A stretch of 64,000 nucleotides of DNA from Arthrobacter sp. SLBN-100 (GTDB taxonomy: Bacteria; Actinomycetota; Actinomycetes; Actinomycetales; Micrococcaceae), in contig NZ_VFMY01000001.1 in NCBI RefSeq assembly GCF_006715305.1, forward strand, positions 2,108,001 through 2,172,000, written 5' to 3'. The notes beneath the pieces were generated by a model. That model was not told where the DNA came from and did not search any database. It worked only from the letters and a program-made list of their open reading frames with translations. Below, piece after piece: positions 59,655 to 64,000 of this stretch. Position numbers and translations under genes: made by a program. Every line of letters starts with the position of its first letter. Positions within the stretch are counted from its first letter, which is position 1.

Positions 59655-61463
59655 ATGGCCAAGCAAACTCCATTTTTTCGATCCATCAGTCGCCTCTACC
59701 CGCATGTCCGGCCGATCATCCCCCGGCTTCTGTTGGGACTTCTCTGCGCGTTGTCGGCCAGCGTTGTTGCACTCGCCATCCCGCAGGTCCTCCGCGTGCT
59801 GGTCAACGAGTCACTGAAGCCCGGCGGTGCATCGGAAGCGGTCTGGATTTCCGCGGGCGCCATCCTGGTACTGGGCGTGGCCGAGGCAGGACTGGTGGCC
59901 CTCCGCCGGCAGTTCGTCATCAACCCCGCCACGTCAGTGGAAACCAGGATGCGGGTTTCGCTGTATGACCACCTCCAGGATTTGACTGTCTCCTTCCACG
60001 ACCGCTGGGGCTCCGGCCAGTTGTTGTCGCGTGCCATGACCGACCTGAACTTCCTGCGCCGCTGGATGGCGTTCGGTGCCATCATGCTGGTGGTCACCAC
60101 CCTCACGGTGATCATCGGCATCACGGTGATGTTTGTGATGAGCTGGCAGCTTGCCCTCATCTTCCTGGCCGCGGCCGTGCCCATCATGGCCTACAGTTTC
60201 CGGTTCCGGACCCGCTTCAGCAGGGTGACCCGCCGCAGCCAGGACCAGGCCGGCGACCTCGCCACCACCGTTGAGGAATCAGTCCACGGCATCCGCGTGC
60301 TCAAAGCGTTCGGGCGAAGCCGGGAGGCGCTCGAAAACTTCAACGAGCAGGCCGAGGAACTGCGCCAGACGGAGATCGAAAAGGCACGCCACCAGGCAAC
60401 ATTCACCATGGTGGTCACCCTGCTTCCCGAGCTCGCCCTCGGCGCCGGCCTGGTGGTCGGGGTGATGCTGTGCGCCAGCGGGCAGCTCAGCATTGGCGCG
60501 CTCGTGGCGTTCTTTGCCACCGCCGCGGTCATGGCCTCGCCTGTGGAATTTTCGGGAATGCTGCTGGCCATGGCCCTCACTGCCAAGACCGCCGTGGACC
60601 GCCACTTCGAAGTGATGGACTCGCCCAACACCATCACCAGTCCCCCCGGGCCCCGGCGGCCCGGCCAACTGGCCGGCGGACTCCGTTTCAACAAGGCCAC
60701 CTTCGCCTTTGAGGATGCACCGGACAAGCCCATCCTGAAGGAGATCGATCTCGACGTCCGCCCAGGCGAAACCATGGCACTGGTGGGTATCACCGGCAGC
60801 GGGAAGAGCGCGCTGATCCAGCTCGTTCCCCGCCTCTATGACGTCTCCGGCGGGGCCATCACCATCGACGGCGTGGACCTGCGGGACTTCGAAGTCGAGG
60901 AGCTCCGCCGGATCGTCGCAGTTGCCTTCGAAGACACCACCCTGTTCTCCAATTCGGTCCGGGACAACGTTTTGCTCGGCGCCCCTGTGCGCACTGATGC
61001 CGTCCTCGACGAGGCCCTGGACGTGGCGCAGGCGCACTTCGCCTACTCCCTGCCCGAGGGAGTGGACACACTGATTGGCGACGAGGGCCTCAGCCTTTCC
61101 GGCGGCCAGCGGCAGCGGATCGCCCTGGCGCGTGCCATCGCCGCGCGCCCCCGGGTACTGGTCCTGGACGATCCGTTGTCCGCCCTGGACGTCCACACCG
61201 AGGAACTGGTGGAAACGCGGCTCCGGGCCGTGCTGAAGGACACCACTACGCTCATCGTGGCCCACCGCCCGTCCACCGTGGCGCTGGCGGACCGGGTGGC
61301 GCTGCTGGAAGATGGCCGCATCACCGCCGTCGGCACCCACACCGAACTGCTGGCGGGCAACCACCACTACCGCTACGTCATTGCCAGCCTGGACCAGGAA
61401 CCACGCGACCTCGATTCCGAACTGTCCGCCCTTGAGGACCAGGCAGAGGAAGTGACCCGGTGA
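59655..61463 (+). CDS. Heterodimeric ABC exporter subunit with degenerate Walker B (subunit 1)
   Basis: A 602-aa exporter: a six-helix transmembrane domain (residues about 1-310) and an ATPase domain. Walker A is [10 protein letters not shown], the signature is LSLSGGQRQ (canonical), but Walker B is [12 protein letters not shown], where the catalytic Glu is replaced by Asp. The H-loop is IVAHRPST. The Asp makes its own Walker B the weak half of a degenerate site. GAGAAG precedes the ATG. It overlaps the next gene by four bases (GTGA). Substrate unknown. Confidence 0.9.
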
Positions 61464-63286
61464 GCACCACAACTTTTGGCACGGCCAACGAGGACAATGC
61501 CCACCTCAGCAAGAGTGACAGCAGGGCTGTACGACGGCGGTCGCTGGCGCTGCTGCGCAGCCTGATCCGGCCGGTGCGGCTGCGGTTCTGGCTGACGATA
61601 GCCACGGTGATCCTTTCGCAGGCGGCCCGCGTGGCCGGTCCGGCGCTGATCGCCTTCGGCATCGACCACGCGCTGCCCGCCCTGCAGGCCGGAGACAACC
61701 TCCCCCTGGTGTTCACCGGCGTCGCTTATCTGCTCGCGGCCATCGCGACGGCGGGACTCACCGCCCTGTACGTGACGTCCACCGCGAAGCTGAGCCAGGC
61801 CATGCTCCTGGACCTGCGTCTTCGGGTATTCCGCCAGACGCAGCGGCTGAGCCTGGAGTTCCACGAAAAATACACCTCCGGCCGGATCATTGCGCGGCAG
61901 ACCTCGGATCTGGAGGCCCTCCGCGAACTCCTGGACTCCGGCGTCAGCTCACTGGCCTCAGGCCTGCTGTTCATGATCTTCACTGCCGTTACGGTGTTCG
62001 CCCTGGATTGGCGCAGCGGCCTGCTGGTGCTGGCCGCGGGTGTTCCGATGTTCTTCCTGGCCCGCTGGTACCAGAAGCACTCCCAGATCGTGTTCCGCGA
62101 ATCCCGGGTGGTTTCGGCACGGCTGATCGTGCACTTCGTGGAGACCATGACCGGCATCCGCGCGGTGAAGGCGTTCCGCAAGGAGCAGGAAAATGCTGAC
62201 CGCTACGGGAAGCTTGCCGAGGACTACCGCCGGGTCACCGTCCGCTCCATCAACCTCAACGGCATCTTCCAGCCGGGGCTGGTCCTGATCGGAAACGTCT
62301 GCGTGGCCGTGGTGCTGCTCTTTGGCGGTTTCCGCGTCCTCACCGGGGACCTTGCGGTGGGTGTGCTGCTGGCGCTCATCCTGTCCACGAAGCGGTTCTT
62401 CCAGCCCGTGGACCAGATGGCGATGTTCTACAACTCCTTCCAGAGTGCCCAGGCAGCCCTGGAAAAGGTGTCCGGGCTTCTTGAGGAAGTGCCCACCGTC
62501 CGCCCGCCCAGGAACCCGATAGCCTTGGGCAACGCCAGGGGGGCGATCGATTTCAAGGGTGTGGAGTTCCGCTACGGCGACGGCCCGCTCATTGTTCCCC
62601 AGCTGAACCTGCACATACCTGCCGGCCAAACAGTGGCCCTGGTGGGCCAGACCGGAGCCGGAAAATCCACCCTCGCCAAGCTGATCGCCCGCTTCTACGA
62701 TGTTTCCTCCGGGTCCTTGACCCTCGACGGCGTGGATCTGCGCAACCTCAGCACCACCGACCTGAGGCGGAACATCGTGATGGTCACCCAGGAGGCCTTC
62801 CTGTTCAGCGGTTCCGTTGCGGACAACATCGCCTTGGGCCGGCCGGAGGCATCGCGCGCCGAAATCGAGGAAGCAGCGAAGGCGGTGGGCGCGCATGGCT
62901 TCATCCTGGAACTTCCCGAAGGATATGACACTGATGTCAATAAGCGGGGCGGCCGTGTATCGTCCGGGCAGCGCCAGCTCATCAGTTTCGCCCGGGCCTT
63001 CCTGGCCCGCCCGGCCGTGCTGATCCTGGATGAGGCCACGTCCTCACTGGACATCCCCTCGGAGAGGCTGGTGCAGCACGGGCTGGCCAGCCTTCTGGCG
63101 GGGACGGACGCGGCCAGCAGGACAGCACTGATCATCGCGCACCGGCTGTCCACAGTGGAAACTGCTGACCGGGTACTGGTAGTGCACGGCGGCCGGATCG
63201 TCGAGGATGGCTCACCTGCGGAGCTGATCGGCGGCGGCGGACGTTTCGCGGACCTGCATGGTGCGTGGAAGGACTCGCTGGTCTGA
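61460..63286 (+). CDS. Heterodimeric ABC exporter subunit with canonical Walker B (subunit 2)
   Basis: A 608-aa exporter of the same architecture. Walker A is [10 protein letters not shown], Walker B is [12 protein letters not shown] (Glu present), but the signature is VSSGQRQ, which lacks the canonical LSGGQ. Pairing Walker A/B of this subunit with the signature of subunit 1 gives the single competent site. Starts with GTG. Such asymmetric pairs are multidrug or lipid-type exporters elsewhere. Confidence 0.9.
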
Positions 63287-63368
63287 CAGGGGGAAACCCG
63301 AGGGCTTTCAGGATTTCGCATCGGGGACCAGCATCGGCTATCCTTGTAAAGTTGCTTTTGCAGCGGAT

Positions 63369-63445
<77 letters not shown>

Positions 63446-63453
63446 AAAAGCGG

Positions 63454-63483
63454 AAGAGGGTCTCCCACGGGAGGCCCTCTTTT
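63454..63483 (+). terminator. Terminator of tRNA-Pro
   Basis: A 12-bp stem, AAGAGGGTCTCC paired with GGAGGCCCTCTT (one G-U), a 4-nt loop and a run of T. Confidence 0.85.
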
Positions 63484-63530
63484 GCGCTGCCTGGCGGTCA
63501 CAGCGAGAGATAACTTTTTGGTAAAGGGAA

Positions 63531-63558
63531 AGGCCCCGAAGCAGTTGCTCCGGGGCCT
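63531..63558 (-). terminator. Terminator of the repeat-peptide gene
   Basis: AGGCCCCG pairs with CGGGGCCT, extended inward by four more pairs after one mismatch. On the minus strand it is followed by TTTCCCTTT. It lies 29 bp after the peptide gene stop. Confidence 0.75.
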
Positions 63559-63586
63559 CCCTCGCCTCCTGTGATGAGGAAGCTGG

Positions 63587-63802
63587 TTACGCAGGATCAG
63601 GCCAGTTACCGATGTATGTGACCGTGGTGTCGTTGCTCTTTTCCTTCTTAACCTTCTGGGAAGCCGGATCAGGCCAGTTCCCAATGGCTACGGAAGTCTG
63701 AGAGTTGTCAGCCAGCGAACCTGCAGACAGTACGGCCGGAGCCGCTGCGGAAAATGCCAGCGCCCCCGCCAGCACGGCGGCAGCAGCAATTTTCTTCAAC
63801 AT
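63587..63802 (-). CDS. Exported 71-aa precursor with duplicated C-terminal octapeptide IGNWPDPA (candidate peptide signal)
   Basis: A signal peptide starts MLKKIAAAAVLAGALAFSAA, with a likely signal peptidase I site at SLA-DN (after residue 31). The mature part is 40 residues. It carries IGNWPDPA at residues 40-47 and again at 64-71, the very C-terminus, with a Lys-rich linker (KVKKEK) between. The two octapeptide coding segments (63662-63685 and 63590-63613) differ at four codons, for Ile, Gly, Pro and Ala, all synonymous. TTGAGGA precedes the ATG. I recognise no family. The layout resembles pheromone precursors such as Phr, PapR or AimP, whose active peptide is the C-terminus; an antimicrobial or structural peptide is an alternative. 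Confidence 0.8.
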   Translation of the reverse strand: MLKKIAAAAVLAGALAFSAAAPAVLSAGSLADNSQTSVAIGNWPDPASQKVKKEKSNDTTVTYIGNWPDPA

Positions 63803-63843
63803 ATGAGTTCCTCAATACGAGTCGGATTCGTTACAAAGCCAGC

Positions 63844-63913
63844 ACTGTCCTTGTTGACACCCATTGTAAAATGTTTTCCACAGAGACTGTCAAGCATTCG
63901 TCAACTGACTGTC
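63844..63913. promoter_or_regulatory. Divergent promoter region with three ACTGTC repeats
   Basis: ACTGTC occurs at 63844, 63886 and 63908, spaced 42 and 22 bp (about 4 and 2 helical turns); the last two extend to GACTGTC. TTGACA (63854-63859) and its inverse TGTCAA (63888-63893) also occur. These are candidate binding sites for the XRE protein encoded on the right. Confidence 0.45.
63863..63893 (-). promoter_or_regulatory. Promoter of the repeat-peptide gene
   Basis: On the minus strand, -35 TTGACA (63888-63893) is followed by TTTACA at 17-bp spacing or TACAAT (63863-63868) at 19 bp. The transcript would begin about 50 bp upstream of the ATG. Confidence 0.55.
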
Positions 63914-63932
63914 CGGAAGAGGAGGAAATCCC

Positions 63933-64000
63933 GTGGGCAACGGATTCGGGGAGAAGCTCCGGGCGGAGCGGCTCGAACGGGGACTAACACAGGCCGAACT
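63933..64000 (+). CDS. XRE-family helix-turn-helix regulator, 5' part only
   Basis: The GTG at 63933 has AGGAGG about eight bases upstream. The 22 complete codons read MGNGFGEKLRAERLERGLTQ then AE, the first helix and turn of an XRE/Cro HTH domain. The gene runs out of the window, so the rest is unseen; a C-terminal TPR domain would fit a peptide-binding RRNPP regulator, while a plain short XRE protein would not. It is divergent from the repeat-peptide gene with 130 bp between the starts. Confidence 0.75.
   Translation, partial: MGNGFGEKLRAERLERGLTQAE

Follow-up and report, generated by a model that had tools for sequence, protein, structure and literature searches.

Introduction

Whether an actinobacterium can talk to itself through a linear peptide pheromone, in the manner of the RRNPP systems, is the question raised by two divergent genes at the end of the 64,000-nucleotide stretch of Arthrobacter DNA analysed here ("the window"). 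An earlier note, made from the letters of this stretch, had proposed that a small exported precursor with a duplicated octapeptide and a neighbouring XRE-type regulator form an RRNPP-like system, and knew of no described family with such a sequence. Its proposal is supported by the pairing of the genes, by selection on the peptide copies and by the XRE-TPR architecture of the regulator, and we consider it highly probable that precursor and regulator are a self-sensing pair of peptide pheromone and receptor, working like the RRNPP systems.

Gamma-butyrolactone receptors are TetR-type proteins. Gamma-butyrolactone signalling is the best known quorum sensing of actinobacteria; like the proposed pair, it joins a self-made diffusible signal to a cytoplasmic regulator, while, unlike the pair, it employs an enzyme-made small-molecule lactone and no peptide (PMC4748050). 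In the available part of the same source, cyclic or modified peptide signals of Actinobacteria are also mentioned, and for quorum sensing in Arthrobacter just predicted AAA, LuxR_C_like and REC domains are listed. Actinobacterial signals are described as mostly enzyme-made small molecules (PMC10075063), and the RRNPP group is treated as a family of Firmicutes/Bacillota or of Gram-positive bacteria, with actinobacterial members unnamed in the available portions of the texts (PMC10075063, PMC9765709, PMC13220807); the words "actino-" and "Streptomyces" are absent from the searched text of PMC12700828. The open-access literature searched gave no description of such a system in Actinomycetota and no paper with the string "GNWPDP".

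The Precursor and Its Repeated Octapeptide

The precursor (pro-pheromone) gene lies at positions 63587-63802 on the minus strand, as read from the list of open reading frames and from homologues in the genus, and encodes 71 amino acids from an ATG start. Two lysines, a hydrophobic core and small residues make its N-terminus resemble a Sec signal, and a signal peptide of about residues 1-28 (63719-63802) is predicted; of the earlier claim of an exported precursor, the size and the Sec-like N-terminus stood, the signal being judged by a hydropathy heuristic only. The octapeptide IGNWPDPA occurs internally (residues 40-47, 63662-63685) and again at the exact C-terminus (residues 64-71, 63590-63613), the two copies being separated by a Lys-rich linker (residues 48-63, 63614-63661) that differs among species, all on the minus strand; two copies around a Lys-rich linker is the arrangement first described. 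The mature part reads ...SVA-IGNWPDPA-SQKVKKEKSNDTTVTY-IGNWPDPA-stop, with the protein ending in ...TYIGNWPDPA. Four of the eight codons differ between the copies, every difference being synonymous; hence, the two copies are not a fresh duplication of DNA. Among 74 two-copy precursors, the mean column identity is 0.85 in the signal region and 0.89 in each copy, and falls to 0.56 in the linker.

Behind the gene, a GC-rich hairpin at 63532-63557 (minus strand), followed by a T-rich tract, is the probable terminator of the precursor; the 52-nt fold reaches -34.3 kcal/mol (z -4.4), and one of 200 shuffles was as good. The assignment of a terminator to the precursor is thus upheld by hairpin and T-rich tract, but not by a strict terminator scan, which omits the hairpin and lists as its sole site 63468-63450, with 1.7 expected by chance.

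The Regulator

The putative pheromone receptor starts with a GTG at 63933 on the plus strand, 130 bp from the precursor and divergent from it, as had been claimed. It covers 63933-64000 in the window (68 bases) and runs on for 1192 bases to the window-equivalent position 65192 (L004:3933-5192). Reading past position 64000, a check that had been proposed, gave a protein of 419 amino acids with an N-terminal XRE helix-turn-helix (HTH) and a TPR superhelix behind it, rather than the short XRE protein devoid of a peptide-binding domain that had been named as the contrary case; the TPR part is recognised both by Pfam and in a structure model. The Pfam matches comprise HTH_31 (E 9.2e-12) and HTH_3, both within residues 5-64, and TPR_12 (E 7.9e-08, above cut-off), further TPR models being weaker. 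In the regulator family, TPR_12 matches 15 of 22 members at E 0.1, and no RRNPP-specific family appears among the 25 listed of 34 Pfam families. PPR matches in the profile search were disregarded as sums of many tiny repeat matches. In its own genome, the regulator has no second homologue at E 1e-3.

Two structure models were made, the first from 28 close homologues and the second, which is the better one, from 32 more diverse rows. In the first, the HTH is weak and the best structural matches are LGN-type TPRs, with RapI and NprR lower. In the second, some nine pairs of helices follow one another from residue 71 onwards (pLDDT 80-98 by tens), and residues 1-28 lie below 50; the HTH part is poor in both. 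Structural matches of the second model include Rap (Z to 24.0), NprR (22.0) and AimR (19.9), which make up 18 of the 50 matches listed, and their scores are equalled or surpassed by those of unrelated TPR proteins (APPBP2, MalT domain III, APC subunits); as modelled, the superhelix matching the RRNPP receptors is a generic fold, common to many TPR proteins outside that group.

Retention of the Pair in the Genus

A precursor match is present in all 121 genus genomes examined (E 3e-41 to 4e-6 at a threshold of E 0.1; genomes drawn evenly from a larger group, the own one included), and therefore the octapeptide precursor is not a product of chance. The earlier note had also named precursor homologues without a linked regulator and with non-conserved octapeptides as a contrary case. 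At the locus level (126 loci, from 120 of the 121 genomes, i.e., without G086, and from six others), the precursor stands beside the regulator in 126 of 126, and in 125 of these it is divergent with a gap of 124-146 bp; the 126th locus (G105, L191) has a precursor with three identical copies and the start MVKK.

Named relatives come from Pseudarthrobacter and Arthrobacter. Among the loci of named genomes (the best 80 of 293, with details listed for 17), for which the genera Arthrobacter, Pseudarthrobacter, Paenarthrobacter, Sinomonas and Specibacter are named, 79 of 80 contain a divergent, signal-like open reading frame with W-P. As a background control, 449 other long open reading frames of the same 80 loci, all from close relatives, were inspected likewise; such a divergent frame accompanies 20 of them, one of the 20 being a true precursor. 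Of the 12 control matches listed (out of 24), four are true precursors, and eight seem to be the same piece of a longer gene met repeatedly. The proposed search of Micrococcaceae for W-P precursors next to XRE genes has, thus, found them genus-wide, and in other genera as well.

The cassette or gene was met in a metagenome-assembled genome named Acidobacteria (L238, JABBNV010000048.1, one of the 79 loci), where the in-frame precursor sits in the same place as in L075, and in a 352-bp contig named Streptococcus pneumoniae (P0133); these two occurrences are probably due to mis-binning and contamination.

Constraint on the Octapeptide Copies

Copies were counted with the strict pattern xGx[WL]PxPx, in which positions 2, 5 and 7 are invariant and position 4 almost so, and which is blind to changes there. 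By this pattern, the 126 genus precursors carry one (4), two (74), three (30) or four copies (18), and all recognised copies are identical in 114 of the 122 multi-copy precursors. Once rows with the same mature region are collapsed, concordance is seen in 106 of 114, while in 2000 shuffles of copies among precursors the concordant number averaged 25.9 and peaked at 37. This shuffle ignores relatedness, and more weight is given to the codons: 269 within-precursor copy pairs differ by 697 synonymous and 24 nonsynonymous codon changes, with 14 pairs identical in DNA, and at the free positions 1, 3, 6 and 8 the counts are 292 and 24 (272 pairs). Under a loose pattern (five of eight letters), 106 of 123 precursors are concordant, with 743 synonymous versus 110 nonsynonymous differences; the extra differences stem from seven related genomes (G020, G059, G063, G082, G101, G114, G116) that carry a degenerate copy, xGNWADQL, from GNWPDTM in G115 and from one false match in G021. 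As synonymous differences far outnumber nonsynonymous ones, the recognised copies are, to judge by these alignments, old and held to one amino-acid sequence, with some copies decaying.

Counted without G105, the 113 concordant precursors assign to the octapeptide types IGNWPDPM (45), VGNWPDPM (37), IGNWPDPA (10), TGNWPDPV (6), TGNWPDPM (5), VGNWPDPA (4) and SGNWPNPM (3), with TGIWPDPM, TGNWPNPM and SGNWPDPM occurring once each. Rare types occur in both copies of one precursor. On the receptor tree (FastTree, 121 rows, 117 labelled), the type has changed at least 13 times. When receptor columns are compared with the type in the 117 labelled rows, each trait rests on one to a few independent changes, too few to demonstrate a column that tracks the peptide; among the positions listed, residues 129 (Q) and 168 (G) are lacking from all 17 T/S-type rows and shared by all 100 others, a difference that reflects a single evolutionary event. 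These natural variants are ready-made tests of specificity, and the pair can be tested with synthetic octapeptides.

Mixed precursors exist: in seven genomes the last copy ends in V and the others in M, and G111 combines three V-type copies and one I-type copy in one precursor. G015 and G032 have one copy each, and G328 has lost the C-terminal part. Of 125 genus precursors, 122 stop directly after the last residue of a recognised copy. The Sinomonas precursors listed mostly have short tails behind the last copy, and so a free C-terminal position is not essential. To free an internal copy, cleavage before and after it would be required, and the residues flanking such copies are variable.

Among the degenerate strains, G328 (L037) is truncated, G115 (L163) has GNWPDTM and G015 (L149) a single SGNWPYPV; these, like the seven xGNWADQL genomes, are possibly non-producers, strains of changed pherotype or strains with decaying copies.

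The Shared Intergenic Region

Between the two start codons, a 45-bp block at 63851-63895 (TTGTTGACA...TGTCAAGC) stands out by its column conservation across 125 intergenic regions of the genus: 35 of its 45 columns are more than 95% conserved (mean 0.945), compared with 22 of the 85 remaining intergenic columns (mean 0.758). It contains TTGACA and, 28 bp further, TGTCAA, and the elements TTGACA, GTAAA and TGTCAAG recur, some of them altered, in several other genera whose regulators are 48-77% identical. By our own reading, the candidate promoter of the precursor (63863-63893, minus strand) consists of a -35 element TTGACA (63893-63888) and a -10 element TACAAT (63868-63863) at a spacing of 19 bp, with TTTACA at 17 bp as an alternative -10 element; a strict promoter scan of 61000-64000 found no promoter. 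From the pattern of conservation we infer that the block serves as the divergent promoter and probably holds the regulator's operator in it or beside it.

When the own genome was searched for TTGACANNCATTGTAAAAT with up to three mismatches, one perfect site, that of the pair's locus, and two three-mismatch sites were retrieved, against one in the control; there was no second perfect site, and the surroundings of the two three-mismatch sites offered nothing compelling. A single perfect site fits local autoregulation. The palindrome ACGARTCSGAYTCGT, tried as a handle on a regulon, was rejected, as 22 matches in the own genome versus 26 in the backward control carry no signal. A further palindrome, ACGAATCCGACTCGT, in the leader of the precursor (63817-63831), is largely conserved in the own genus; it was not seen in the other genera examined, and in the own genome it is no more frequent than the control.

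Proposed Mode of Action

By analogy with RRNPP systems, the precursor would leave the cell via Sec, and proteases outside would release from it several identical IGNWPDPA octapeptides, which an oligopeptide permease would take back into the cell. Uptake is possible, since the genome encodes 10 SBP_bac_5 proteins. Inside, the octapeptide may bind the groove of the TPR superhelix and thereby alter the action of the XRE domain on DNA, at least at the shared divergent promoter; the direction of this regulation, the reach of the regulon and a dependence on cell density are likewise conceived after the RRNPP model. In the yeast alpha-factor precursor, peptide repeats raise the signal yield, and repetition could similarly provide more signal per precursor here. 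The copies would stay identical because all of them must fit one receptor.

The most serious competing explanation, which we hold to be rather unlikely, leaves this machinery in place and changes its purpose: the octapeptide would be a message of the producer to itself, passed inside the cell or across its envelope, by which the regulator would monitor, for instance, the cell's own secretion or proteolysis and not population density. The tight divergent pairing and a block that is perfect only at the pair's own promoter would suit such an autocrine loop, and an RRNPP-like anatomy by itself is no demonstration of density sensing. However, the octapeptide drifts between species with its copies changing together, as pherotypes do, for which an internal monitor gives no obvious reason.

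Relation to Known Systems

Considered as a self-sensing pheromone and its receptor, the pair can be held against published descriptions of the RRNPP group. The strict rule of RRNPP_detector, as given in the accessible part of its description, asks for a receptor of 250-500 amino acids that matches peptide-binding TPR models and for an adjacent propeptide of 10-100 amino acids with SignalP-predicted Sec secretion (PMC10075063). The regulator, with 419 residues and TPR_12 above cut-off, agrees with the receptor part of the rule as worded; the precursor agrees in size and adjacency, with secretion taken from the hydropathy heuristic. RRNPP receptors are further described as right-handed superhelices of five to nine TPR-type helix pairs (PMC9765709), to which the roughly nine modelled pairs correspond, handedness being taken solely from the matches to Rap, NprR and AimR. 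Mature RRNPP peptides are linear and 5-10 residues long (PMC6540685), and the unit repeated here, the putative mature form, has eight residues and is bounded by variable sequence. The host, a relative of Arthrobacter and Pseudarthrobacter, lies outside the range of the surveyed systems, which is Bacillota with their mobile elements, which is a matter of survey scope and no mechanistic criterion. Descent was assessed against Rap, Rgg, NprR, PlcR, PrgX and AimR: the family profile matches PlcR with 42 bits over residues 4-207, by eye largely in the HTH, and the fold match is not exclusive. On sequence grounds, and measured against the parts of the rule available, the pair would work like an RRNPP system and fits the detection rule in outline, common descent being no more than possible.

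We know of no described RRNPP peptide with a W-P core. PlcR/PapR and NprR/NprX, RRNPP factors of the Bacillus cereus group, belong to another phylum than the host of the pair, which differs from them by its divergent gene order and by several identical copies per precursor. Unlike Rap of the Rap/Phr systems, the receptor carries an HTH. Duplicated pheromones are known from Rap/Phr, where identical internal repeats are a minority, whereas in the pair identity of the recognised copies is the rule (114 of 122); in the available text on the Phr105 family, six members with identical internal repeats are set against 33 with pseudo-repeats, and Phr3T has none (PMC11343458). The AimR/AimP arbitrium system is a lysis-lysogeny switch of Bacillus phages, while the pair is chromosomal and genus-wide, and no phage genes were recognised beside it.

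A Wider Class of W-P Precursors

Regulator homologues at E 1e-10 are found in 116 of 245 genomes of the family, drawn evenly, and in 17 of its 32 genera. The precursor units of the other genera include AVGIWPNS, FVGNWPDAV, RVGNWPDA, PGNWPD, PGIWPDS, TGNWPNxV, VWIWPD, VGEWPH, VGDWPH and PAVGNWPDRF, in one to eight copies. A W-P precursor adjoins 35 of 62 XRE-TPR receptors (L052-L123), one of them (L119, a single W-P in a plus-strand frame) being unconvincing. The other 27 have no such neighbour; these orphans, in many cases a second or third paralogue, are L080-L086, L090, L092-L103, L106, L107, L110, L118, L120, L122 and L123.

In a sister branch whose TPR receptors lack an HTH, as Rap does, each of the 11 receptors is accompanied by a W-P precursor, whose very last residues are often IGWWPN, KMGNWPH or the like; L079, an XRE-TPR gene read in two frames, is left out of this count. 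A GGDEF-EAL protein, recognised by similarity to the L111 proteins, belongs to the cluster in 15 of the 18 genomes examined (L111:2715-6038, L112, L113, L114, L115 and L108, and in part L216, L218-L220 and L224-L230) and is absent from L104, L105 and L109; eight of the 15 also contain a DUF7793 (PF25056) protein, the Pfam names being taken from three GGDEF-EAL and two DUF7793 proteins. A peptide-to-cyclic-di-GMP pathway is possible, and such a sister cassette would link a peptide pheromone to cyclic-di-GMP. Upstream of the cassette in L115, a gene for a REC-GAF-HisKA-HATPase kinase was noted (L115:908-2590). L108 and L109 each contain two HTH-less receptor and precursor cassettes in tandem, with the peptides IDDWPH/KVGNWPG and IDNWPN/KVGNWPDG, which looks like duplication and divergence.

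Outside the family, two of four receptors of the same order have a W-P precursor, one repeating TVGGSWPTSQDP and one ending in SDTWPA. Elsewhere in the class, such a precursor accompanies 6 of 13 receptors and carries either DIEWP, DIGWP or DISWP repeats or one of the single-copy ends TLDWPWI, ALNWPKCC and PDWPGMCC. The Cys-Cys ends, found in the single-copy precursors of L322 and L331, might indicate a disulphide or otherwise modified pheromone. One of these genomes is a Streptomyces, with a precursor identical to a Streptomyces vilmorinianum protein; a search with this precursor as query matched solely itself. Among 150 Streptomyces genomes, 30 have the receptor at E 1e-30, and 5 of the 30 loci, the query's own included, have a W-P precursor, the other 25 being without one and at least one of them missing upstream DNA. 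Divergent precursors with repeated DIEWP, DIGWP, DISWP or IDWP accompany Streptomyces XRE-TPR genes at L323, L325, L328, L339, L343, L344 and L349. For these distant cases, called by a heuristic frame finder whose background control covers the loci of close relatives, repeated W-P units appear convincing and single-copy ones weaker.

We lean slightly towards regarding all these cassettes as an actinomycete-wide superfamily of W-P-coded pheromones (GxWP in Micrococcaceae, DIxWP in Streptomyces, other xWP elsewhere) whose receptors act in two ways, as XRE-TPR transcription factors or as TPR proteins devoid of an HTH and clustered with a GGDEF-EAL cyclic-di-GMP protein, in which co-changing multi-copy cassettes form species pherotypes and which would be either a second origin of the RRNPP principle or an ancient branch of it outside Bacillota. 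With the genus-wide pair of soil Arthrobacter relatives and the related cassettes of some Streptomyces, a group noted for its antibiotics would gain a signalling language of simple genetic make-up.

It is very improbable that the repeats merely serve the structure of a protein of the cell wall or surface and stand beside the regulator by accident. Up to eight copies in some genera would suit a structural role, as would the database name "putative low-complexity protein", which relatives of the precursor bear beside "hypothetical protein" (a few jgi entries are unrelated guesses); yet single-copy versions ending exactly in the motif exist, the linkers are unconserved, adjacency to a TPR receptor persists across genera and in the second, HTH-less branch, and the control frequency of 20 in 449 speaks against coincidence.

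Neighbouring Genes

Two genes recognised as ABC exporters (59655-61463 and 61460-63286) are convergent with the precursor and could be a peptide exporter or just neighbours. The least probable reading of the locus takes them as the exporter of an antimicrobial or toxic peptide, with the XRE protein doing no more than regulating it, or immunity to it, locally. In its favour, bacteriocin loci too may combine an XRE gene with a small exported protein made of repeats, the exporter genes adjoin the pair and a homologue of the nearer one occurs in 77 of 95 relatives' loci. Against it, this homologue is missing from 18 of the loci, which extend over no more than 2-3 kb, and most of the 18 retain the precursor; the precursor has a predicted Sec-like signal of its own; the pair contains nothing recognisable as a gene for modification or immunity; the octapeptide is short and hardly varies within the genus; and the receptor has a superhelix of the peptide-binding type. 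Beyond the precursor hairpin lies a tRNA-Pro(CGG) gene (63369-63445), and genes recognised as purC/purD-like follow the regulator on the opposite strand.
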